Source: a virus. Taken from it: a stretch of 38,624 bases of DNA. The notes beneath the pieces are model-generated. The model was not told the origin of the DNA and did no database searches. It saw only the letters and a program-made list of their open reading frames with translations. The DNA lies in the IMG/VR virus record IMGVR_UViG_3300030060_004693, positions 1 through 38,624 of that record; one strand, 5' to 3'. The translations under genes were made by a program, and so were the position numbers. Shown one piece after another: positions 5,743 to 32,780 of this stretch (positions within the stretch are counted from its first letter, which is position 1; each line of letters begins with the position of its first letter).

Positions 5743-8700
5743 TGAAGATCATTCAGGTATTAACGGACTCGGGGCTTAAAAATGTCATTATTGATGGAGA
5801 TGAGCCAACTCCAAATGATATGGCAAGGATGCGTGAACAGTTTCAATACGCACCACAAATGCCAACGAGCGATATGGGAGGCACGCAAACCGTTCCTATG
5901 CAACTTGCTCCCGTACCACAACCCGAAGAACCCGAAATACCTGAGCTAAAGCCGGAATACTTAGAACCCGATCAAGCAAGATTAGCTGAACGAAAAGGCA
6001 AAGCGTTCGAGCAAATCGAACAAGCGTACAAGGAAGGAACGGGCGTGCAAACGCAAATACCTGACTATATGAAAGCTCGCTTTACATCCAAAGGGCCAAC
6101 CATAAACGAACGAATCTTAGGCGGAGGGGTAGGCAGATCAATAGCAAGTGCTGAAGCTTTTGCAGAGGGGTTACTTGGAGATTCCGAACGTGCAAAAAAG
6201 ATTGATGAGAATATTGCCAATATACCATACGAGCCTGGTGTGGCAGGGATGGCAGAGCGTATCGTTCAATTTGTAACTCCATTACCCGTTGCTGGTCAAG
6301 CAGCCCAGTTGACAAAACTAGGCCCGCTTGCAAAAACTGCAATGGGTTCTGCGCTAGTAGGAGGAACAAGTTTTAGTGGGCAACAAGATCGACTTTCCGA
6401 TCTTGTGCAAGAGCATCCTCGCTTGGCAAATCCGGTGACTGAATACTTGGCAACCGATCCCGATGATACTTTTGCCGAGGGTAGATTGAAAAACGCATTG
6501 GAGTTTGCGGGTCTTGATGTGGCGGTTGTCGGCCCGTTCATGCTTGCCTTGAAAGGTCTTAGGGGTGTCAAAGCGGCAGGCAAAGGAGGGCAAAGTGGTG
6601 GAGAGATTGCAGATCAACTTAACAAACAGGTCAAGAAAGCAAACCTTAATCAGGTTGTTCGTCCTCCGGTTAACGGCAGGGTCGAAGTTGCGCATTCGGG
6701 TGCTATGCAATTGCCTGATAAAGTTGTTGAGCAAGCAGGCAGAACATTATCCAGAGTGTTTGATGGAGTAAATGCAGTTCGAGAAGCACCTATTTTAAGG
6801 GTCGGACTAGGTGAAAAAGCTATTCGACCACTTTCCTCACGTGTAGAGGAACTGAGTCCATATTTTGCTAAAAATCTTACACGTTTTGAAGTTGAGCAAA
6901 ATGTATTGAGGAATGATTTCCTACAAAGAGTAAATCCGTTTTTGGAAAACTATGGAAACATGACTAGCGCGGACAAGAAACTGTTTTCTAGACACGCTTT
7001 CAATAGTGATATCATTCCTGCCCGAAAAGTTCTGAATAAGTACTCAGGCAAGAAGGGCATGGATAAGATATTAGATAATTTTGAAGACATGAGAACCGTG
7101 TTTGATGACTTGCAAAAAATGGCAAACGACAACGGACTCAAGGTTGAATATACCAAGCACTACTTTCCAAGAATGCTTGATGATTATGATGGTTTTCTAA
7201 AAGCAATTGGGAAAGACCCCGATAAGAAACTGGATGATGCGTTTCGTAAAGCGCTTGAAGATGCTTTGGGCGAAAAACAAAAGGCTCTTGCTCAACAAGC
7301 AGCGGTACTTGACAGACCACTCAAGCAAGCAACTTCTCTTACAAAATTTGAAAAGCAAGAAGTCGCAAGAAAATTTCTAGATTCACAATATCGAGGACAG
7401 GGCAAGCAAGGTTACCAAATGAACCGGGTAATAGATAAGATCGATGAGAAATATATGCCTTATTATGGTGGGTTTGGATCAAACGTTCAAAGGTATATCA
7501 ATAACCTAACGTATAGGGTCGCCAAAAATAGGTTTACCGGGGATTCCCCCTTAGCTCCAAATGGTGGATACAAGAAGGAAGTTACTGAAAGAATGGCAGA
7601 TGGTAGGTTGCGCCCAGGAGAAGCGCAAGAAATCGAGAGGTTGTTTGACGTGAGGTTGCGCGGTGGAGAACAAAGCGTAGGTGACGGATATAGAACACTC
7701 GCAAACATCACTTACTTGTCTACCATTGGTAATCCCATATCTACAATTACCCAAACCTCGGAAGCATTTTTAAATGCCTTTCGGAATGGGGTCTTTCATA
7801 CTGCAAAAACTGCTGGCAAGACAATGAAAGGTACGGGTATAAGGCTCAAGGATCTTGATTTAGAAGTCATTGCAAAAGAAATGATTGATCCTATTGCGAC
7901 AACTACGGGACGTGGTTTTACGTCAAAACTACAAAAGGGAACTCGCAAGTTTCTTGATTTTGCTTTGGACAAAAGTTTGTTCCGAAAAATGGACTTCATG
8001 ATGAAAGAGTCCAATCTAAACGGAGCAATGTCAAAAGCTCAGCAACAACTCAAGAACCCAAAATCTGCCGAGTACAAGGACTTCGTTGCGAAACAATCCA
8101 AATTTTTTGAGGGAGAAACGCAAAACTTGGTAGATGCGATTAAGAAGGGTGACATAAATGATCCCAACGTTAAGAATTTTTTATATGCAAAGTTGGCACG
8201 CACCCAACCCATATCCCTGTCTGAATATCCTGAGTATTACATAAAGAATAAGAATGCCAGGCCATTCTACTTCCTTAAAAGTTTCGGACTGAAACAACTT
8301 GAAACTACAAGGCGAGAAGTGCTTAGAAAAATTTCAAGTAGTAACGCTCAGGAAGTAAGAGAGGGTATGAAGCAGGGCATACGATTGTCAGTTTTGTTTG
8401 GTGGCGGGATAACCGGAGTCAACACGGTGAAAGATTGGTTGCTTGATAGAGATGACAGACCGGGTATGTTCGAGGGAAATCAAATGCCAACAAAAGAAAG
8501 ACTAGCGAGTAATGCGATGGATGGCATTTTAACTCTGTTTGGATTAAGTAAGTACAATACATACAGGATCAAAGATGATACTGGTAAAGGAGTTATTGAA
8601 GTGTTTATGCCTCCGCGATCATTTGAGGTATTGGATGGCATTGGTGGTCTTTTACAGGGTGATCCTTCTAAGCTCGGAAGAACGTTGGAAAAAAGCTTCC

Positions 8701-10524: not shown

Positions 10525-11501
10525 TGTTACGAACTGATATAAGCAACTCGGGTTACCATAGCTCGGGTGAATTAAATAGGAGCATGGCTTGGCAACTCGT
10601 CAAGTCATGCCCTGCCAAGGTTTGGCATCAGATGCAAAACCCCACGCCTTCTGACGCACCGCACTTCGTGGTAGGAGGGTGTACCCATACCGCAACTCTC
10701 GAACCGCACAAGCTCGATGACGAGTATGGGGTCAAGCCTGAGAGTATCGATGGTAATTCCTCACGAACCAACGCATACAAAACGGCATTCCAAGAGATGC
10801 AAGAACGTGAACCTAACAAACGATGGTTGACCAAGAGCGATTACGAAACCTGTATGCGCATGGCGGATTCCGCAAGGGAGCATCCTTTGTTGCAAACTTA
10901 CCTTGATGATCCTGACACGATTATCGAGGGTACTGGATACTTCGGGTACGAGGGCGCATCGTGCAAGTTGCGAACTGATCTGTTTAATACCAGGTCAGAG
11001 GTGGTAATCGACCTGAAGACTACGCAAGAAGGAGATCCAAAGGGTTTTCACCATTCGTGTCGAAGGTATGGTTATGATTTCCAAACCGCATTTTATATGG
11101 AAGGACTTAGGCGCATGGGATACAACCCAACGCAATTCATCTATCTATGCGTAGAGAAGTCTGCACCCTACCTGACAAGCGCTTATGAGATCGACCTTAC
11201 CCAAGTGTCTCGAATGAAAGTAAAGATGGGAGAGGCGTGCAGGACGTGGGTCAAATGCATGGAGAGTGGGGTATGGCCTGGATATGGCGATCACGTACAG
11301 ACGTTATCATTCGGAAGCAAAACCGCAGACTCCAATCGTTTGTCAATCCAAGAGTTGACCAAGTACTTCAACGTATCGCGCTCGTTTGTTTACAACAAAA
11401 TACGAGACTTTGATTTGAAGACTGAAGTGTATGGGCGCAGAAGAACCGTTGACATGACCGAGTTCGCAAACACGCTCAATCCGAAGGAGGATAAGAAATG
11501 A
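10524..11501 (+). CDS. RecE-like PD-(D/E)XK exonuclease with C-terminal helix-turn-helix (325 aa)
   Basis: Residues 1-265 match the RecE/DUF3799 PD-(D/E)XK pattern. They include GGCTHTATLEP (His55), CKLRTDLF (Asp152), VVIDLKTTQ (Asp163, Lys165) and the YGYDFQTAFYMEGLR helix with Gln187. Such enzymes resect double-stranded DNA 5'-3' for phage recombination, normally with a RecT/Beta annealing protein, which I do not see; the adjacent SSB may serve. Residues ~274-312 add a second domain, LSIQELTKYFNVSRSFVYNK followed by a short wing (GRRRTVDM), which reads as a helix-turn-helix. This extension is not part of ordinary RecE. The stop overlaps the next start. Confidence 0.82.
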   Translation: MLRTDISNSGYHSSGELNRSMAWQLVKSCPAKVWHQMQNPTPSDAPHFVVGGCTHTATLEPHKLDDEYGVKPESIDGNSSRTNAYKTAFQEMQEREPNKRWLTKSDYETCMRMADSAREHPLLQTYLDDPDTIIEGTGYFGYEGASCKLRTDLFNTRSEVVIDLKTTQEGDPKGFHHSCRRYGYDFQTAFYMEGLRRMGYNPTQFIYLCVEKSAPYLTSAYEIDLTQVSRMKVKMGEACRTWVKCMESGVWPGYGDHVQTLSFGSKTADSNRLSIQELTKYFNVSRSFVYNKIRDFDLKTEVYGRRRTVDMTEFANTLNPKEDKK

Positions 11502-13613: not shown

Positions 13614-13741
13614 AAATGATTAAAAGATTGGTAAAGATATTAAACAAAATAGGTTTGCACGCCTTGTTTCTGCTGGCTTGCACGCTATTCGCCTACATGA
13701 TCCTCATGTTCGTACTGACTTTGATGGGTGTATTCTCATGA
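13610..13741 (+). CDS. 43-aa single-pass membrane peptide
   Basis: A short ORF with the start ATG overlapping the upstream stop and the TGA overlapping the next ATG (13738). It has a basic start (MKMIKRLVKILNKIG) and then one hydrophobic span (HALFLLACTLFAYMILMFVL), the typical inside-positive membrane topology. It sits between nuclease and helicase-loader genes. No role can be proposed beyond membrane association. Confidence 0.6.
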   Translation: MKMIKRLVKILNKIGLHALFLLACTLFAYMILMFVLTLMGVFS

Positions 13742-21627: not shown

Positions 21628-21685
21628 CTTTTTTTGTTAATTGTCATATTTTTATTGACTATGCAATTAAAAAGCGTAGGGATGC

Positions 21686-22132
21686 ATGCGGATGAAGATT
21701 GAAGTGGCTAGTGAGATTTTGGAGAAGAGCGGGATAAGTAGGGATGAATTTGCGAGTATGGTTGGCGTGAAGAGTACTTCCATGCGTATGACTTTTTACA
21801 ATGGACGGTTCAGCAAGAAAGCGGTTGCCCGTCTCGAATTGCTTGCGGAAGACTTGGGTATGGATTTGGAAGGTGGTCAGGAGGAAGCTCGGGACGTGAA
21901 GGAAGGGATGATTAGGCAGAGTATGGGCGAACCGAGGGAGCGCATGGGAGTTGTTTATTCATTGCCTAGAAATCCGTATTTGCGACTTGTTGAGTTTGAG
22001 GATGGTACGCATGGGAAGTTTCGTGCTAAGGAGGGCAGATTCGGATTGGGTAGTCGTGTTAGGTTGAAGAAGGGCGAGGGTGGACTTTGGGAGTTATGCG
22101 GTGAGTATGACAGGAAGGATCGGTTGGTATGA
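21686..22132 (+). CDS. HTH regulator, possible phage repressor or early activator (148 aa)
   Basis: Residues 5-60 (ASEILEKSGISRDEFASMVG then KSTSMRMTFYNGRFS and ARLELLAEDLGMDL) look like an XRE-type five-helix HTH. The C-terminal part, with LVEFEDGTHGKFRAKEGRFG, is beta-rich. A TTGACT at 21655-21660 with a poor -10 may be the promoter. The ATG six bases downstream (21692) is an alternative. It is the first gene of the + strand methyltransferase/terminase operon and the best candidate for the master regulator. Its stop overlaps the methyltransferase start. Confidence 0.6.
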   Translation: MRMKIEVASEILEKSGISRDEFASMVGVKSTSMRMTFYNGRFSKKAVARLELLAEDLGMDLEGGQEEARDVKEGMIRQSMGEPRERMGVVYSLPRNPYLRLVEFEDGTHGKFRAKEGRFGLGSRVRLKKGEGGLWELCGEYDRKDRLV

Positions 22133-23058: not shown

Positions 23059-23517
23059 ATGAGTGATGACGAGGTGGAGATCAGGGACTTGGTATCCGTA
23101 TTATTGGGACTTATGCCTGCAAGTGAGCGCAAGATCGTGAGTATGTATTATTTGGAAGGGTACAAGTGTAGGGAGATAGGCGAGCGTTTTGGAGTGGGGG
23201 CGGGTCAGATTAGTCTGATTATACGAAATATCATTCGCGAATGCGGGCATTTGGTCACCCAGTTGGACAAGAAGAGGAAGGTATTTTTTCAACCTTTGAT
23301 TTCCAAGAAGTCCATATTGTTTGATCATACTGCGTATTCGAGGAAGAAGTTATTGGATCGAAGAAAGGCAACGAAGGAGAAGCAAGACATGGAAGAAGCA
23401 TGGGCATACGAGAATTTTCAAGATCATTGGAAGTGGAGCATAGAGAAGGGTCATCACGTTCACCCTGCCATACGCAGAGCGTATAATCGATTGATGGAGG
23501 AATCCAAATGTGGATAA
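23059..23517 (+). CDS. Sigma-70 region-4-like HTH transcription factor (152 aa)
   Basis: The first 75 residues (LMPASERKIVSMYYLEGYKC then REIGERFGVGAGQISLII) have the LPxxERxIxxxYYLEGxSxxEIAExxG signature of sigma region 4. The rest (from about residue 90) is basic and helical. No region 2 is present, so it is not a complete sigma factor; it may be an anti-host factor, an activator or a late-gene regulator. The two near-identical late promoters at 26951 and 30628 make it a candidate for their control. Its stop overlaps the GTG of the next gene. Confidence 0.6.
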   Translation: MSDDEVEIRDLVSVLLGLMPASERKIVSMYYLEGYKCREIGERFGVGAGQISLIIRNIIRECGHLVTQLDKKRKVFFQPLISKKSILFDHTAYSRKKLLDRRKATKEKQDMEEAWAYENFQDHWKWSIEKGHHVHPAIRRAYNRLMEESKCG

Positions 23518-24382: not shown

Positions 24383-24499
24383 ATGAGCGTGGATAAATGG
24401 TGGTTGCTCGAACCTAATGATGATGATCAATGCGATGATATGTGGGGAGTAGACGAGGATGACGAGGAGGACGAAGAGGAGGAGAGTGAGGAAGCGTGA
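24383..24499 (+). CDS. Small, extremely acidic protein (38 aa)
   Basis: The ATG at 24383 has AAGGAA upstream. The product begins MSVDKWWLLEPNDDDQCDDM and continues with an almost unbroken run of Asp and Glu to the end (EDDEEDEEEESEEA). Such a charge pattern is known from DNA-mimic antirestriction proteins, but no family is recognised and it is shorter than those. It lies right after a methyltransferase gene. The codon run overlaps the basic N-terminal reading of the next gene. Confidence 0.45.
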   Translation: MSVDKWWLLEPNDDDQCDDMWGVDEDDEEDEEEESEEA

Positions 24500-24503
24500 A
24501 CGT

Positions 24504-24671
24504 ATGCTCACTTTGCCCGAAGCTCAGGAAGCGGAGAAGCGCTTTTGGAGCAATACGCAAGTTATCCGGTTTGAGGTTGGGAGCGATGGAGAGAAGCGCC
24601 CCGTGCGCTCAAAGGTTCAGCGCGTAGTGCCTAGTGACTTTTTTGACTTTAGAAAGGGGCGCAAGAAGTGA
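24504..24671 (+). CDS. Hypothetical basic protein (55 aa)
   Basis: The frame is open further upstream (ATG 24459, GTG 24486), but those starts would lie within the acid-coding stretch and give only a basic run. The ATG at 24504 has GAGGAAG about 11 bases before it. The protein reads MLTLPEAQEAEKRFWSNTQV then IRFEVGSDGEKRPVRSK. Its stop overlaps a GTG of the next gene. No family recognised. Confidence 0.45.
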   Translation: MLTLPEAQEAEKRFWSNTQVIRFEVGSDGEKRPVRSKVQRVVPSDFFDFRKGRKK

Positions 24672-25263: not shown

Positions 25264-26949
25264 ATGCCCAAGATAACCTATACTGACGAGGTAGACGCGA
25301 GGTTTGGCATCCCGTGGACTGATGACCTCAAGTATGACAAGGGCGAGCTTGTATGCGCGTTGAGCGAGGAAGAGATTGATCGCTTGACCATCGAAGACCC
25401 CGAGCGCGCAGAGACGCTCACACGCTTGCTCATGGATCAACCTACCAGCGAAAAGGAAGATCCCATACAATGGGGATGGACTCTGCCCGGATGGAGACGG
25501 GTGATGGAGAGATTCGACAAGGACAAGATCCACGTGATACTTGGTGGGAACAGATCGAGTAAGACCATGATGGCATCCCGTTTGCTCGTACACTTGGCTC
25601 AGGCAATACCCGAAGCTGAGATACGCAGTATGCACGTAACTGAGGAGCGCAGTATTCAAGATGCGCAGAAAACGATTTGGCAAAATTTGCCCATGCGGTA
25701 CAAGCGTTCCAAGAAGAAGAGCGCGAATCATAGCTTGCAATATAATCAGAAGAACGGATTCAATTCGGCAAAGGCAATCCTTCCCCCGACAATCGCAGGG
25801 GCGGAACGAGGAAGCACGATATATTTCAATAACTACCGCCAGTACATGGCAGACCCGCAAATCTTCGAGGGATGGTCTGCTCATGCAATCCACCTGGATG
25901 AAGAAGTACCTCAAAATATTTTCGAGACGTTACTAGGGCGCACCGCAGACTATCATGGACGATTGATCCTTACCTTCACCACGCTCCAAGGATGGACACC
26001 ATTGATCAATAGCTTGCTCAAGGGTGCGGAGACGGTACGGACGAGATATAGCGAACTCTTGCAGAAGGAATTGCCCATTGAACAAATCTCCGCGAATTGG
26101 CCTGACTGTAGGATACATTACTTTTGGTCAGAGCAAACTCCGTTCATTGATTACAAGGAATTGGTACGCACTTATTCCAAGCAACCGCAGGAGGTAAAGC
26201 TTGCCCGACTGTACGGTATCCCGTCCAAGTCGTTCGAGGGACGCTTCCCAAAATTTCAGCGCGAGACAAACGTTATTCCGCATGAGAGAATTCCGTTCAT
26301 TGCCGATCCATCGCTCAAGGTCACTAAGTATTTCGTATGCGATCCGGGCGGGAGCAAGCCTTGGGTTGCGATATGGGCGGGTGTGGATTTACAAGGGCGC
26401 ATCTACGTTTATCGGGAGTTCCCTGACAGTACGATGGGAGCATGGGCATTGCCCCACGTAAACAATGCCGGAAAGAGCGTGGGCAAGCCCGGCCCTGGAC
26501 AGAAGCCCTTGGGATGGGGATATAATCAATACAAGGAACATTTCGAGGATTTGGAAGACGAGGAGGATATATTCGAGAGAATAGTAGATCCGCGCATGGG
26601 ATCGGCAACGGTGCGCGAGAAGGAGGGCGAATCAAACATCATCACAACGATGAGCAATCTTGGATTCGTATTTCGTCCTGCTCCAGGTGTGGACATAGAA
26701 GCGGGAATTGCAAAGATCAATGACGCTTTGAGTTGGGACGATACCGAACCCATGACCGATCAGAACACTCCTCGCTTGTTCGTGAGTGACAGATGCGAGA
26801 ATTTCATATCCTCGATGATTGAGTATAGCGGGCAATCGCGTCAGGAACATTTCAAGGATTTCGTGGATTGCATACGCTATTTAATGGTCAGCGGAGCGGA
26901 TCACGTGACTAGTCGCGACCTCATGATCACGGGAGGCGGAGGATATTAG
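25264..26949 (+). CDS. terL: Terminase large subunit (561 aa)
   Basis: The ATPase part shows Walker A GGNRSSKT (94-101), Walker B HAIHLDEEVP (207-216) and the coupling motif LTFTT (236-240). The nuclease part has FVCDPGGSKPWVAIWAGVD (Asp360), ERIVDPRMGS (Asp442) and KDFVDCIRYL (Asp532/Asp535). It translocates and cuts concatemeric DNA into the prohead. The ATG at 25264 is used; AGGCGAGGGA just before is a weak ribosome-binding site. It is followed immediately by the conserved promoter at 26951 and the portal gene. Confidence 0.95.
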   Translation: MPKITYTDEVDARFGIPWTDDLKYDKGELVCALSEEEIDRLTIEDPERAETLTRLLMDQPTSEKEDPIQWGWTLPGWRRVMERFDKDKIHVILGGNRSSKTMMASRLLVHLAQAIPEAEIRSMHVTEERSIQDAQKTIWQNLPMRYKRSKKKSANHSLQYNQKNGFNSAKAILPPTIAGAERGSTIYFNNYRQYMADPQIFEGWSAHAIHLDEEVPQNIFETLLGRTADYHGRLILTFTTLQGWTPLINSLLKGAETVRTRYSELLQKELPIEQISANWPDCRIHYFWSEQTPFIDYKELVRTYSKQPQEVKLARLYGIPSKSFEGRFPKFQRETNVIPHERIPFIADPSLKVTKYFVCDPGGSKPWVAIWAGVDLQGRIYVYREFPDSTMGAWALPHVNNAGKSVGKPGPGQKPLGWGYNQYKEHFEDLEDEEDIFERIVDPRMGSATVREKEGESNIITTMSNLGFVFRPAPGVDIEAGIAKINDALSWDDTEPMTDQNTPRLFVSDRCENFISSMIEYSGQSRQEHFKDFVDCIRYLMVSGADHVTSRDLMITGGGGY

Positions 26950-26950
26950 G

Positions 26951-26979
26951 TTGACCCGTAAGGGGAATTACCTTACACT
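26951..26979 (+). promoter_or_regulatory. Late promoter with palindromic spacer (copy 1)
   Basis: TTGACC (26951-26956) and TACACT (26974-26979) are -35 and -10 boxes with exactly 17 bases between. The spacer contains GTAAGGGGAATTACCTTAC, with GTAAGG/CCTTAC inverted arms. Nearly the same block stands at 30628-30656. Spacer conservation beyond what a promoter needs points to a regulator site lying between the boxes. The start would fall about five bases before the portal ATG. Confidence 0.7.
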
Positions 26980-26990
26980 TTGCTACGCTT

Positions 26991-29060
26991 ATGTTAAGTG
27001 CCGCTGATCCCGAACTCTTATTCGTCTCGAAAGAACCTGACATTGCGTACTTGTCGCAGACCTACAAGCAAACGCAATCCGATCTAGGAGAGTGGCTTGA
27101 CCGCAGGCAACGCGACTATGACGTTCGCAATTGCCAATGGTCAGGCAAGTCTGATGACTTTAAGAAACACTCCTCCTTATCATCTACTGGCGAAGTATTC
27201 CCTTGGAATGGAAGCTCAGACCAAGAGGTAAGGCTGGCAGACGAGTTGATCGGATGTCGGGTAGCGATGGTGATGAACGCAATCAGACGCGCTCACATCG
27301 TTGCGACCCCTACGGAATCCAATGACGTCGAACGAGCCTCGGTAGTGAGCAACTTCTTGCGTTGGTTGATCAACTCCAAGATGGACGAATTTTATCCACA
27401 GATTGAACTGGGACTCCAAAACCTCTTTGAGAAGGGGATGATGGTTCATTACACGTGGTACGAACAACAAGACCTGAAACAACAACAAACGATCAAGCTT
27501 GAAGAGATTGCGCAAGTTTTGCCCGCCATTGCAGAAGTCATACAGGACGGATCAATGGATGATGAACTGAGCGAAACTCTCAAGCAACAATTCGGAGTGA
27601 GCAAGTCGAAAGGCAGAGCGATGCTCCGCGAGTTGAGAAAAGACGGTGAGACTACCGTTCCGGTTACGCGAGAAGTCGTGAGCCGCCCCAAGATCCGCTC
27701 ACTCGCACCTGACGAGGACGTGTTTTGGCCTAATTATACGATTGATCCGCAGGAAGCGCCCTACGTATTCCACGTGGTCAACATGACCCCCGAGCAAATA
27801 CGTTCCAAGATAAATACGGAAAAGTGGGACAAGGAATTTTGCGAATCGGTAATTGATCTGACCAACAATGCGGAAGCGGATAGTAACTTATATAATATCC
27901 GCGAGCAAGATCAGTTCGTGCATACTGACGATCAATACGTAAAGATCGTATATTGTTATCAAAGACTCTTGGACGAGGATAACATTCCGGGTATTTACTG
28001 CACGGTATTCCATCCTGACGTTAGCGAGTCCTATGCCAAGCACCAGTTGATGGACTATGCTCATGGCAAGTATCCTTTCCAAGTAACCACGCTTGAGAAG
28101 ACTTCCAAGCGTTTGTACTCGTCCAGGTCATACCCCGAGTTGATCGAATCGCTTCAGCAAGTACTCAAGGTGGAAACTGACTCTGCGATTGACGCTCAGT
28201 CATTGACCACTTTGCCACCGATAGAACACCCCCTTGGTCGCGCCCCGACAAAGTGGGGGCCGGGTATTCGCATTCCATATCGCACGCCTGGAGAGATCAG
28301 GTTTGCCGACACCCCTCGCGGTTCAACCGTGAACGTCGAGCTACGCAGATACATCAAGGAACAAGCGGACAGATACTTTGGCAGAAACGCACCCGGTGTC
28401 GATCCTGTGGAAGCGCAGATGAAGCAACAGGAGGTCATCGACAAGTGTTTCCAGCACCTCAAGCAAGTACTTGATCAAATATTCAGCTTATATCAGCAAT
28501 ACGGGCCTGACCAAGAATACTTCCGTGTAACCGGAATGCAGGATATGCAGAAGTTTGCCAAGGGCAACTCCGGTGAACGCTTTGACTTTTACTTGCAATT
28601 CGATGCCGCCACGCAAGATCCCGCTCAAATGGTCGAGCGCGTAAAGGCAATAGCCGAGCTTGGTGGTATGCTTGACAAGAACGGAGTGCTTGATACCGAG
28701 CGACTCCTTCAGGTTGCAGTCGGACAAATCTTACCGGGAGCGGCAGAGAGCATCATCGTACCCAAGGAAACCGCATCGCAAAAAGCGGTGGAGGAGGAGA
28801 GGCAGACGATTACCGAGATATATGCAGGCGTGCCTCCTAACGTTCGTCCGAATGACGCGCATGAGATGAAGCTTCAAGTATTTCAACAATGGTTGGCGCA
28901 ACCCGACGTCACGCAAAAGGTACAACAAGATCCTGCTCTGCAAGAGCGTATACAGAACTACCTTCAGCAAAGACAGATGCAAGTCACGCAACGTCAGAAT
29001 GCTGAGATTGGAAGACTCGGAGCAGCCCCAACGCAATTCGGAGAAACCCCTACTGCTTGA
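26991..29060 (+). CDS. Portal protein (689 aa)
   Basis: It directly follows TerL and has the size and composition of podovirus portals. N-terminal DLGEWLDRRQRDYDVRNCQW and SSDQEVRLADELI are typical, with a clip/stem region around YKIVYCYQRL-like strands. The C-terminal barrel segment is Gln-rich (LQERIQNYLQQRQMQVTQRQ, then NAEIGRLG). A dodecameric ring at the capsid vertex is expected. There is no Shine-Dalgarno sequence, and the promoter at 26951 would start transcription about five bases upstream, so translation may be leaderless. The TGA overlaps the next ATG. Confidence 0.9.
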   Translation: MLSAADPELLFVSKEPDIAYLSQTYKQTQSDLGEWLDRRQRDYDVRNCQWSGKSDDFKKHSSLSSTGEVFPWNGSSDQEVRLADELIGCRVAMVMNAIRRAHIVATPTESNDVERASVVSNFLRWLINSKMDEFYPQIELGLQNLFEKGMMVHYTWYEQQDLKQQQTIKLEEIAQVLPAIAEVIQDGSMDDELSETLKQQFGVSKSKGRAMLRELRKDGETTVPVTREVVSRPKIRSLAPDEDVFWPNYTIDPQEAPYVFHVVNMTPEQIRSKINTEKWDKEFCESVIDLTNNAEADSNLYNIREQDQFVHTDDQYVKIVYCYQRLLDEDNIPGIYCTVFHPDVSESYAKHQLMDYAHGKYPFQVTTLEKTSKRLYSSRSYPELIESLQQVLKVETDSAIDAQSLTTLPPIEHPLGRAPTKWGPGIRIPYRTPGEIRFADTPRGSTVNVELRRYIKEQADRYFGRNAPGVDPVEAQMKQQEVIDKCFQHLKQVLDQIFSLYQQYGPDQEYFRVTGMQDMQKFAKGNSGERFDFYLQFDAATQDPAQMVERVKAIAELGGMLDKNGVLDTERLLQVAVGQILPGAAESIIVPKETASQKAVEEERQTITEIYAGVPPNVRPNDAHEMKLQVFQQWLAQPDVTQKVQQDPALQERIQNYLQQRQMQVTQRQNAEIGRLGAAPTQFGETPTA

Positions 29061-29560
29061 TGATTGCAGAGGATTTAATTAAGGAAGAAATCAAGTCTTG
29101 GTCATCCGAGGTTCTTGAAAAGCCTAGCGAAAACTTTTCGGGGTTGCCTCCTTGTCCTTATGCAAAGCGTGCATGGACTGAAAAAAAGGTAGGTTTGCAC
29201 GTTACGGATGACTTGGAAACTGCATTGCGCATCAAGAACAGGAGTTCGATTGGAAGTGGAGAGGTTGAAGTGGTTGCTTGGATGGGTTGGGATAGCATGA
29301 GCGACAAACAGTTTGACAAGTGGATAGATAAACAAAATGCAACCCATGAGGGTACTTGGATGATCGGCTTTCATCCTGAGCATCCTGTTGACGAACTGCA
29401 AGAGGAGTTCGAGGGTAACGATGCCCCTGAGTATGCGTTGATATTAATACAACCTTTGTCTGACTTGAGCAAGGCATCCAAAAGAATTTTGAGAAAGGGA
29501 TATTATCAAAAATATACTGAGGAAGATATGAACCATGTTATGGAAAGGAACGCACAATGA
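29060..29560 (+). CDS. Hypothetical phage protein with LPPCPYAKRAW motif (166 aa)
   Basis: The ATG at 29060 overlaps the portal TGA (TGATG). SGLPPCPYAKRAW and TWMIGFHPEHPVD are motifs I recall from marine phage proteins of unknown role. It is alpha-beta, acidic in its middle and basic at the end (YYQKYTEEDMNHVMERNAQ). No membrane segment is seen. Lying between the portal and the lysine-rich proteins, it is likely a head or morphogenesis factor, though a regulatory role cannot be excluded. Confidence 0.7.
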   Translation: MIAEDLIKEEIKSWSSEVLEKPSENFSGLPPCPYAKRAWTEKKVGLHVTDDLETALRIKNRSSIGSGEVEVVAWMGWDSMSDKQFDKWIDKQNATHEGTWMIGFHPEHPVDELQEEFEGNDAPEYALILIQPLSDLSKASKRILRKGYYQKYTEEDMNHVMERNAQ

Positions 29561-29610
29561 AGGGACGTCGTAAGATGCGCAAAGTTGTTAAGCGTAAGAA
29601 AAGAAAGTAA
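29557..29610 (+). CDS. 17-aa basic peptide
   Basis: ATG at 29557 overlaps the previous stop (ATGA). The product is MKGRRKMRKVVKRKKRK, with 11 of its 17 residues being Lys or Arg. It is the first of four consecutive lysine-rich ORFs and could bind DNA. It is very short, so it may instead be a translation-coupling leader for the next gene. Confidence 0.4.
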   Translation: MKGRRKMRKVVKRKKRK

Positions 29611-29615
29611 ACCCC

Positions 29616-29885
29616 ATGAAGGGTCATACTATTAAGGGCGGGCATAAGCGTCCGACCAAGTCCGGTGCGGGCATGACTAAAAAAGGTATTCGTAAGTACA
29701 AACGCGATAATCCTGGTAGCAAGCTCAAGGGTGCGGTCACGGGTAAAGTGAAAAAGGGAAGTAAGGCAGCCAAGCGCAGGAAGTCGTATTGCGCTCGTTC
29801 AGCTGGACAAATGAAAAAGTTCCCCAAAGCCGCAAAGAATCCAAACAGTAGATTGCGTCAGGCTCGCAAGCGTTGGAAGTGTTGA
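29616..29885 (+). CDS. Lysine-rich small phage protein (89 aa)
   Basis: The segments GAGMTKKGIRKYKRDNPGSK, LKGAVTGKVKKGSKAAKRRK and SYCARSAGQMKKF, ending SRLRQARKRWKC, belong to a group of small basic proteins that recur in marine phages (DUF6321-like from memory). About a third of the residues are Lys or Arg. They are thought of as virion-associated or DNA-condensing, but no function is proved. The ATG starts a few bases after the 17-aa ORF. Confidence 0.75.
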   Translation: MKGHTIKGGHKRPTKSGAGMTKKGIRKYKRDNPGSKLKGAVTGKVKKGSKAAKRRKSYCARSAGQMKKFPKAAKNPNSRLRQARKRWKC

Positions 29886-29888
29886 TTT

Positions 29889-30062
29889 ATGGCAACAAAA
29901 AAAACAAGTAAAAAAGGCAAGAACGTGCCAACCAACAAGACGTTGTATTCAAGGGTGAAAAGCGAAGCTAAAAGAAAGTTTGACGTATATCCCTCGGCAT
30001 ACGCAAATGCGTGGTTGGTCAAGACCTATAAGAAAAGGGGCGGGGGTTACCAGAAAACATGA
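29889..30062 (+). CDS. DUF5872-like small basic protein (57 aa)
   Basis: The protein MATKKTSKKGKNVPTNKTLY then SRVKSEAKRKFDVYPSAYAN and AWLVKTYKKRGGGY has the DUF5872-type pattern (NKxLYxRVKxEAKRKFxVYPSAYANxWL), which I recognise from phage and giant-virus proteins. Function unknown; probably DNA binding. It is too short for many ORF callers. The TGA at 30060-30062 overlaps the next ATG (30059). Confidence 0.7.
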   Translation: MATKKTSKKGKNVPTNKTLYSRVKSEAKRKFDVYPSAYANAWLVKTYKKRGGGYQKT

Positions 30063-30319
30063 GTCTAAAAAAGTGGTTTTCTGAGGAATGGGTTGACATA
30101 GGCCGAAAGAAAAAAGGAGGAGGTCATCCTAAATGCGGAAGAAAGAAAGCCAGTACTAAAAAAAAGGGATACCCGAAGTGTGTACCAAAAGCCAAAGCCG
30201 CAAAAATGACGGCAGCGCAAAAGAGGTCTGCGGTAAAAAGGAAGAGAGCAAAGGCGCAGGGGGTTGGAGGTAAACCTACCAACGTAAAAACTTTTGCTCG
30301 TAAGAAGAAAAAGAAATAA
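30059..30319 (+). CDS. Lysine-rich small phage protein (86 aa)
   Basis: MSLKKWFSEEWVDIGRKKKG then HPKCGRKKAS, KKGYPKCVPKAKAAKM and VGGKPTNVKTFARKKKKK is a pattern shared with the small basic proteins of many marine phages. The two Cys residues (CGRKKAS, PKCVPK) are conserved-looking. It overlaps the preceding stop by ATGA. Third of the block; a packaged nucleoid-like component is a possibility only. Confidence 0.7.
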   Translation: MSLKKWFSEEWVDIGRKKKGGGHPKCGRKKASTKKKGYPKCVPKAKAAKMTAAQKRSAVKRKRAKAQGVGGKPTNVKTFARKKKKK

Positions 30320-30320
30320 T

Positions 30321-30560
30321 ATGCCCCGAAAGAAAAAGACCTACCACGAAATCGATCCCGAAGAAGCGATGCAAGCATTGAGCTTCCTCAAGGGAGAACC
30401 GAATTTTTTAAAGTATATCGAGATGCGCGAAGAGATGCGTGAGGAAGTGATCCGCCAGTTGCAGATACCCGAAGTGGTTGCCTGCACGAACAGACACTTC
30501 ATGCTATGCGGAAAACTCGAAGCGATAGACGAAGAACTAGACACTTTTTACAAGCTATAG
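30321..30560 (+). CDS. Hypothetical acidic/helical protein (79 aa)
   Basis: I use the ATG at 30321 (MPRKKKTYHEIDPEEAMQAL); the open frame upstream is an extension into the previous gene. After a basic start it is a helical acidic protein (YIEMREEMREEVIRQLQIPE). A single Cys-Thr-Asn region (VVACTNRHFMLCGKLEAIDE) precedes the C-terminus. It is the last gene before a strong terminator. Family unknown. Confidence 0.65.
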   Translation: MPRKKKTYHEIDPEEAMQALSFLKGEPNFLKYIEMREEMREEVIRQLQIPEVVACTNRHFMLCGKLEAIDEELDTFYKL

Positions 30561-30580
30561 AACAGTTCATTCATAGGGGT

Positions 30581-30626
30581 AACCCCCTTGCGAGATCCGC
30601 CACACTAGCTCGCAAGGGGGTTTTTT
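30581..30626 (+). terminator. Rho-independent terminator between portal and scaffold units
   Basis: AACCCCCTTGCGAG (30581-30594) and CTCGCAAGGGGGTT (30609-30622) form a perfect 14-pair stem with a 14-base loop, followed by T through 30626. It stands directly before the second late promoter, whose -35 begins two bases later. This separates the portal block from the capsid block and lets them be set separately. Confidence 0.92.
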
Positions 30627-30627
30627 G

Positions 30628-30656
30628 TTGCCATGTAAGGCGAATTACATTACACT
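30628..30656 (+). promoter_or_regulatory. Late promoter with palindromic spacer (copy 2)
   Basis: TTGCCA (30628-30633) and TACACT (30651-30656) are -35 and -10 boxes at 17-base spacing. The spacer holds GTAAGGCGAATTACATTAC, differing at only two positions from copy 1 at 26951, and the match continues past the -10 (TTTGCTAC). Start near 30663 leaves a 25-base leader before the scaffold ATG at 30688. Confidence 0.7.
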
Positions 30657-30687
30657 TTGCTACACTACGCTACGAGATGCGTTGATT

Positions 30688-31814: not shown

Positions 31815-32780
31815 ATGGCTTCAAGTACATCATACAACACCGCAGGTAATCGTGAGGACTTAACCTCAATTATCAGCGTGCTAGAACCTGAATCAACGCC
31901 TTTCGTCAGCATGATGAAAAAGGCTAACGCAACTGGAACATTCGTAGAATGGCAGGCCGACAAGCTTTCCACTCCAAACTTTGACGGAGTTAACGAAGGC
32001 GAGGACGTAAGTTCTTTCAAGAATCAAGCCGAAGATCGCACTCGTTTAGGAAACTACGTTCAGAAGTTTAGAGATACTTTCCAAGTCTCTGACATTCAGC
32101 AACTTGTTGACACCGCAGGAGTCGCATCTGAGTTCGCAAACGCAGAAAGCAAAGCAGTACGGAACGTCAAGCGTTCAATCGAATCTGCATTCTGTTCCGC
32201 GCAAGACCGTCAGGCAGAAGCCGGAAGTGGCACGCCTTACAAGACTCGCGGATTGCTCAAGTGGCTCGGATCGGGTGGACAACCTTCCGACGTCCCTGCC
32301 GCTTATCAAAGCGTTGCAAACGACACCACAGGCACGCAGACCGAAGCTACCTTCAATAGCGTTCTTCAAGAACTCTATCAAGCTAACGGAATGCCCGGTG
32401 GACAGTTGACCTTGATTGCAGGCCCAAGCCTCAAGCAAGAGATCAGCAACTTCTCACGTCAGCTTGCCGCAGCCAATGGCACTTACGTTGTCAACCAGGA
32501 TGCCGAGTCCCGCAAGATCACGCTTACCGTGAATCTCTACGAAGGAGATTTTGGTAACGTTGCGATTGTTCCTTCGCTGTTCGTAAATCGGACGAGCGGA
32601 TCTGACACGGTTGACGCTGATGCCGGATTGCTTGTTGATCCCGAATACGTCGGAATGCACTCGCTCAAAGCCGAATCCGCTACCGAGTTGGAAGACCAAG
32701 GCGGAGGACGCAGAGGTTTTGTTGACGTAATTGCCGGACTTGCCTGCTACGCTCCAAAGGCTCACGGGTTCTTTAACTAA
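31815..32780 (+). CDS. Major capsid protein, SU10/DUF5309-like (321 aa)
   Basis: AAGGAGG lies about ten bases before the ATG at 31815, a strong site as expected for a highly made protein. The N-terminal NREDLTSIISVLEPESTPFV and MKKANATGTFVEWQADKLST, then EDVSSFKNQAEDRTRLGNYV and QKFRDTFQVSDIQQLVDTAG, match the DUF5309 family of phage major capsid proteins with an HK97 fold. It builds the prohead shell together with the scaffold upstream and the probable decoration protein downstream. Confidence 0.92.
   Translation: MASSTSYNTAGNREDLTSIISVLEPESTPFVSMMKKANATGTFVEWQADKLSTPNFDGVNEGEDVSSFKNQAEDRTRLGNYVQKFRDTFQVSDIQQLVDTAGVASEFANAESKAVRNVKRSIESAFCSAQDRQAEAGSGTPYKTRGLLKWLGSGGQPSDVPAAYQSVANDTTGTQTEATFNSVLQELYQANGMPGGQLTLIAGPSLKQEISNFSRQLAAANGTYVVNQDAESRKITLTVNLYEGDFGNVAIVPSLFVNRTSGSDTVDADAGLLVDPEYVGMHSLKAESATELEDQGGGRRGFVDVIAGLACYAPKAHGFFN

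Follow-up and report, generated by a model that had tools for sequence, protein, structure and literature searches.

Here, we provide comparative sequence evidence that two distant late promoters of an uncultured marine phage, one before the portal gene and one before the probable scaffold gene, carry a common inverted repeat (dyad) between their boxes and that this dyad is most likely a protein-DNA operator. That the protein reading it is a phage-encoded repressor of the late genes is probable, though well short of certain. The window, i.e., the whole stretch of DNA analyzed, comprises 38.6 kb (38,624 nucleotides) of the 38,954-base virus record IMGVR_UViG_3300030060_004693 and encodes an integrase, an exonuclease, a DnaB-like helicase, a terminase, and a major capsid protein.

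The paired, near-identical late promoters with their common dyad are confirmed in the window. One of them, TTGACC-N17-TACACT, lies between the end of the terminase gene at 26949 and the start of the portal gene at 26991, and the other precedes the scaffold gene (Table 1). An earlier annotation made from the sequence alone, hereafter the original prediction, had correctly given the coordinates and letters of both promoters, their spacing of exactly 17 bases, and the continuation of the similarity downstream into TTTGCTAC. Compared among the TTG-N20-TAnnnT sites of the window, the two promoters agree at 31 of 37 letters, whereas in 300 dinucleotide shuffles no pair of such sites agreed at more than 23. 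The 19-bp core GTAAGGNGAATTACNTTAC is found at both sites, and no further copy occurs in the window with up to three mismatches allowed (0.04 expected). This core had been described as a palindrome inside the 17-bp spacer. The shared core stands, but it is longer than the spacer, beginning one base past the -35 box and ending three bases into the -10 box at both sites. Similarly, the GTAAGG/CCTTAC arms are perfectly inverted at the portal site but have one mismatch (CATTAC) at the scaffold site, i.e., the window contains the dyad once exactly and once with one mismatch.

We compared upstream regions of relatives obtained from viral contigs by a portal search (the best 80 of 175 relatives, 78-100% identical) and a scaffold search (34 loci). 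After duplicate contigs (L115 and L150 are one contig), contigs with a cut-off upstream stretch, and Phage C75C1 (L148, 37% portal identity) had been left out, 86 portal and 82 scaffold regions were readable, 168 in total. The boxes and their 17-bp spacing (TTG-N20-TAnnnT) were present in 86/86 portal and 82/82 scaffold regions and thus in 168/168 regions across all operator classes. By their letters, the promoters are of the sigma-70 type, which is marked by a TTGACA-like and a TATAAT-like hexamer at a spacing of 17 (±1) bp.

The sequence between these boxes falls into classes. Class A, to which the window belongs, consists of contigs with a GTAAGG-N7-C(C/A)TTAC dyad. Its dyad occurs at 32 portal sites in 11 distinct sequences, with the arms kept and all seven center positions variable, and at 28 scaffold sites in 18 distinct sequences, 26 of them sites with perfect arms, a constancy that holds partly by definition as the class is set by the dyad. 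The CATTAC mismatch is confined to the scaffold sites of the window and L002 (2/28), and no other degenerate dyad was found in spacer position with up to two arm mismatches allowed; two-mismatch matches in the class-B contigs L038, L051, L052, L054, and L058 lie within a terminator stem, outside the spacer. Class B (44 contigs) has CTACA-N12-TGTAG at the portal promoter, and class C has GCTACAA-N4-CTACATT in both the portal and the scaffold spacer. Contig L172, from an Opitutia bin, shows yet another shared spacer, GTCAA(C)TACAAANGAC, at both promoters, while L009 and the L028 group have the boxes and no clear dyad shared between the promoters. An inverted repeat whose conserved arms overlap the polymerase site is expected of a repressor operator, and the class-A dyad is such a repeat.

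Scanned for TTG-N3-T-dyad-AAT irrespective of gene annotation, viral contigs yielded 57 promoter-plus-dyad matches in 45 contigs, of which 30 precede the portal gene and 26 the scaffold gene of this phage family. The upstream block that the original prediction had proposed to seek in relatives was thus found before these two genes in 56 of the 57 matches. The one match elsewhere (L216, 12214-12242) is probably due to chance. The exact dyad is present twice each, at the late promoters, in records G009, G005, G010, G004, G067, and G002. A check of 14 records found it in four (G000, G067, G002, G009); it was not found in the class-B records G011, G014, G015, and G070, in Phage C75C1, in the L009 record, or in two L028-group records. 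G068 (L110) and G069 (L116) also lack it, but these records stop before the portal gene.

Among the 68 contigs with both promoters in view, the class-A dyad is at both in 24, at neither in 44, and at only one in none. The original prediction had named relatives that keep the boxes and not the spacer as evidence against a regulator, and taken literally such relatives are frequent, the dyad being absent from 44/68 contigs while the boxes are universal. However, in the dyad-less contigs it is missing from both sites, and in its place several lineages have symmetric or shared sequences of another kind, which suggests lineage-specific operators rather than a meaningless spacer. A site present at both promoters or neither points to a lineage-specific switch for the virion genes. 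A trans-acting reader would fit this joint pattern better than drift at two sites, although exchange of the whole stretch could also have produced it.

Table 1 Features of the window discussed in the text
Feature	Position	Strand	Description
Portal promoter	26951..26979	+	-35 TTGACC 26951-26956, 17-bp spacer, -10 TACACT 26974-26979
Putative late operator 1	26958..26976	+	GTAAGG-N7-CCTTAC, perfect 6-bp arms, 3-bp overlap with -10 box
Conserved discriminator / predicted start region	26980..26986	+	TTGCTAC; from sequence and relatives
Portal gene, 689 amino acids	26991..29060	+	homologue annotated as portal; ATG 11 bases past -10 box
Intrinsic terminator	30583..30626	+	CCCCCTTGCGAG / CTCGCAAGGGGG + T6, directly 5' of scaffold promoter
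Scaffold promoter	30628..30656	+	-35 TTGCCA 30628-30633, 17-bp spacer, -10 TACACT 30651-30656
Putative late operator 2	30635..30653	+	GTAAGG-N7-CATTAC, single arm mismatch
Conserved discriminator / predicted start region	30657..30663	+	TTGCTAC; from sequence and relatives
Predicted scaffold mRNA leader	30662..30687	+	small stem, 30667-30670 with 30679-30682
Probable scaffold gene, 366 amino acids	30688..31788	+	function by position only, directly 5' of major capsid gene
Major capsid gene	31815..32780	+	phrog_1328, E 4.3e-55
TTG-N6-CAA dyad	21655..21666	+	-35 box of helix-turn-helix gene promoter; 27/28 distinct upstream sequences
148-amino-acid helix-turn-helix + OB-fold-like protein	21686..22132	+	weak Xre-like helix-turn-helix, below cut-off; OB-like domain
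152-amino-acid sigma-70 region-4-like protein	23059..23517	+	Sigma70_r4, E 1.7e-7
70-amino-acid basic protein, candidate regulator	24459..24671	+	type tracks operator class

We propose that host RNA polymerase would start the portal and scaffold genes each at a near-consensus sigma-70 promoter and that a phage-encoded DNA-binding protein would bind GTAAGG-N7-CCTTAC, its operator, as a dimer. With boxes this close to consensus at a 17-bp spacing, no activator should be needed, and a dimer on the dyad would have to compete with the polymerase. Spacer operators are reported to compete with polymerase and to repress strongly in E. coli (PMC7804116). By covering the spacer as well as the upstream half of the -10 box, the bound protein might exclude RNA polymerase and keep the virion genes off early in infection or, as the genome has an integrase, in a lysogen. 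Once the regulator is lost, diluted, or inactivated, both promoters could fire together, giving a nearly leaderless portal mRNA that runs up to the terminator and a scaffold-capsid mRNA with a 5' stem-loop. The original prediction had likewise placed a regulator between the boxes to switch the late genes. Binding of a regulator is well supported by the comparison, i.e., by kept arms, a variable center, unchanged boxes, and both-or-neither presence; the two proteins proposed for the role are not.

Transcripts of sigma-70-type promoters start 6-8 bases past the -10 box, and 5' ends are predicted near 26985 and 30662. The portal ATG follows the -10 box by 8-14 bases in 86/86 relatives, so that the portal mRNA would be nearly leaderless, given the predicted start. 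By eye, no ribosome site was noticed before this ATG in the window (26980-26993). When scaffold leaders are begun at the A of TGCTA or TGTAA, 39/39 distinct sequences form a short stem near the 5' end, and the stems are of at least three different sequences (ACGC/GCGT, AGGC/GCCT, AGCG/CGCT). Folding of these leaders has a mean z of -2.2 against simple letter shuffles, with only -1.0 for the window's own leader. The conserved TTGCTAC followed by a stem-loop indirectly supports the predicted start sites, and the stem may perhaps stabilize the mRNA.

Several observations, besides the partly built-in constancy of the arms, weigh against the proposed repressor. Class-B scaffold promoters lack a dyad of the portal type (0/36 contigs showing both sites); with the class-B dyad at the portal alone, not every lineage has both promoters marked. 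The portal gene sits between the two sites, and on a quick tree of it (88 rows) the class-A label has to change three times, all forced by starred branches. L009 and the L028 group are nested inside class A on this tree, yet are without the dyad at both sites, which speaks for the proposed reading. With so few changes, however, most of the both-or-neither concordance is due to shared descent, and only a few changes are independent. L009 is 99% identical to the window in the terminase, 91% in the portal, and about 68% in the scaffold gene, and its dyad may have been lost in one block exchange. No cognate regulator was found, none of the three candidates examined fits fully, and no copy of the dyad occurs at any candidate's own promoter. 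Finally, the assignment to a host consists of two binned contigs that are largely or wholly phage genes.

The dyad could instead be bound by a phage protein that activates, or that both represses and activates, by remodeling the promoter in the style of MerR-type proteins. The location of the dyad between the boxes and the weaker scaffold -35 box (TTGC/T...) would suit such a protein. However, MerR-type promoters are described with 19-20-bp spacers (PMC8113463), whereas the spacer is 17 bp in every one of the 168 regions. The portal promoter is also near consensus unaided, and the dyad overlaps the -10 box, which leaves activation an unlikely reading, if one to be kept in mind.

It is improbable that a host regulator reads the dyad as its operator, with operator classes tracking host groups, although the classes differ among otherwise similar phages, whose hosts may differ. 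Bacterial genomes yielded four portal relatives, namely on L171 (83%, residues 1-490) and L172 (69%), both in Verrucomicrobiota bins, and, more distantly, in an Alphaproteobacteria bin (37%) and a Flavobacterium bin (40%). L172 has homologues of window genes across most of the contig and L171 of the terminase and portal genes only; the host binning of both may be erroneous. The dyad is not enriched in the putative Verrucomicrobiota host family, that of the L171 bin, where it was matched in 8/42 genomes vs 11/42 for a reversed control. The single match in G025 has the letters of the portal operator in phage contig L171. This lack of a dyad excess makes a phage regulator likelier than a host regulator.

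We regard it as very improbable that the repeat acts as RNA, forming a hairpin in read-through transcripts for processing or for hiding the portal start. The inverted repeat is perfect at the portal site, and the ATTGCGTT...AACGCAAT flanking the portal promoters of one class-A subgroup (L013 and related) could hide the ATG. However, no compensatory arm changes were seen with up to two mismatches allowed, although few were possible as class A is set by the arms. The bases next inward of the arms often cannot pair, and the dyad sits ahead of the predicted start and would thus be missing from transcripts of its own promoter. With the non-complementary inner pair and this position, the dyad is most likely read as DNA. 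Least probable of all is that the two near-identical blocks serve as recombination boundaries at which modules are exchanged, rather than in regulation. Two similar blocks do flank the portal module, and L009 resembles a block exchange, one end of which is near the portal promoter; this makes the reading somewhat more likely. Against it, box and arm letters are kept and the center is not, i.e., a protein-reading footprint rather than a length of homology.

As the regulator, the original prediction had suggested either of two proteins. One, the sigma-4-like protein, was rejected as the operator reader because it is sporadic and nearly unchanged beside another operator class. It is found in 4/25 records, a set with many fragments that may not reach the gene, namely the window, class-A G010, and the class-B records G012 and G014 (the latter at 35%). 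In L047 (G012), a window-like left end with a 95% identical sigma-4-like protein is joined to class-B terminase, portal, and scaffold genes and class-B promoters, and from base 783 onward the contig matches class-B L043 at 94% identity. L047 is a natural recombinant or a chimeric assembly, and with this copy beside class-B promoters, the operator type is not determined by the protein.

The other, the 148-amino-acid helix-turn-helix (HTH) protein, is disfavored because it occurs in both classes, has a different dyad of its own, and varies in helix 3 under a constant operator. It has matches in 17/25 records, the match in L047 covering a 17-residue end only, with the HTH part out of view. Its helix-3 letters are KSTSMRM, KPVSMRM, KANSFRM, or KAGSFRM in class A and KPITVRL, KPVTVRL, or KPITARL in class B; some letters do track the classes, e.g., GR vs KR after the helix. 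The model joins the HTH to an OB-like domain, with all structural matches at E > 0.001. The TTG-N6-CAA dyad at its gene promoter is unlike the late operator, stays unchanged whatever the late operator class, and is perhaps the protein's own autoregulatory operator. In class B, CTACATAAGG is seen at both the HTH gene start and the portal promoter (L043, 607-616 and 5962-5983). L113 has GACTACGGATGTAGTC at the HTH gene start, as nearly does L115, and CTAC repeats recur around these promoters.

The 70-amino-acid basic protein has a class-A form in 16/16 class-A contigs whose sequence reaches the gene. Diverged forms occur in class-B contigs including L047 and also in L172, and class C gave a weak match. 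No match was found in L140, the L028-group contig that spans the whole interval, of which L031 and L033 cover only a part. That the protein is specific to class A was discarded after a profile search found the diverged copies in classes B and D and the weak match in C. As A and B are separated by a single split of the tree, its following of the classes is weak evidence, and G068 and G069 are uninformative on the link, despite having a class-A or near-class-A form, since they end before the portal gene. Its model, of modest confidence (mean predicted local distance difference test score, pLDDT, 71), consists of a helix and a beta hairpin; a structural search gave no significant match, and the model shows no known DNA-binding fold. 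Two further candidate proteins also diverge between the classes, a 79-amino-acid protein at 11498 that is MerR-like by eye only, with no Pfam HTH match, and a protein at 13678 that is helicase-loader-like by eye. In the dyad-less group, L140 encodes after the HTH gene a 77-amino-acid Arc-like protein (6063-6296; ribbon-helix-helix, below threshold, E 0.027).

A bolder and rather doubtful proposal is that the operator pair marks off regulatory groups inside a single phage family, and that the late operator is swapped by lineages at the portal and scaffold promoters together, with boxes and genes staying in place, and is read by a fast-diverging phage regulator without a classical HTH. The 70-amino-acid protein is the best present candidate for such a regulator, given its presence in 16/16 class-A contigs, its absence from L140, and its class-B form in L047. 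If true, virion genes would be under direct, immunity-like repression by a new kind of small DNA-binding protein.

The names of the genes around the promoters differ in their basis. The identity of the major capsid protein is secure. The portal name derives from a 22.6%-identical protein annotated as portal and the scaffold name from the position before the capsid gene only; PHROG searches gave no match for either product. Stems comparable to that of the terminator before the scaffold promoter, followed by a T run, are present in relatives. An 89-amino-acid DUF6321 gene (29616-29885), with DNA-level similarity to pelagiphages, was found at 97% in 1/14 relative records as well as in L001, L009, L030, and L034, and otherwise not; it is probably mobile cargo. 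The ends of the window (1 to about 1640 and 36758 to about 38339) share three 300-base stretches of 82-91% identity, as if the assembly had continued round the genome into another strain.

Little is known of late-gene control in uncultured marine phages. Here, sequence comparison alone yields a precise candidate operator, predicted starts, and a defined set of genes under its putative control, with the operator either on both of the distant promoters or on neither. Its regulator should now be findable by a simple binding screen. The approach can also be used to find late promoters and regulatory groups of uncultured phages. In a literature search, the first-ranked titles and abstract openings did not describe this operator or phage group, which is no claim that descriptions are absent.

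Phage proteins govern late promoters that share a site in P2 (Ogr), Mu (C), and T4 (gp55/gp33), where the activator site lies upstream of the -35 box or in place of the -10 box. In contrast, both sigma-70 boxes are good here and the dyad lies between them. The T4-type late promoter has TATAAATA in place of the -10 box and no -35 box, an arrangement not seen in the promoters of the window. MerR-family promoters likewise have a dyad between the boxes, but with a longer spacer, and at 17 bp and with the dyad shifted toward and overlapping the -10 box, the promoters described here fall outside this family. In lambda-type immunity, operators are also found at the repressor gene, for autoregulation, and at early promoters, whereas a scan of seven longer class-A records, four of them incomplete (17.8-25.5 kb), placed the dyad at the two late promoters and nowhere else. 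Lambda- and TetR-type operators are examples of a repressor operator in the spacer between the -35 and -10 boxes. There is also a likeness to engineered spacer-operator lac promoters, which combine strong boxes, a 17-bp spacer, and a dyad of about 19 bp over the spacer and part of the -10 box; unlike in spacer-operator promoters, the two copies here are on virion genes and not in an early or immunity region. As a control element, the dyad is of an ordinary kind, and its comparative record is unusually clean.

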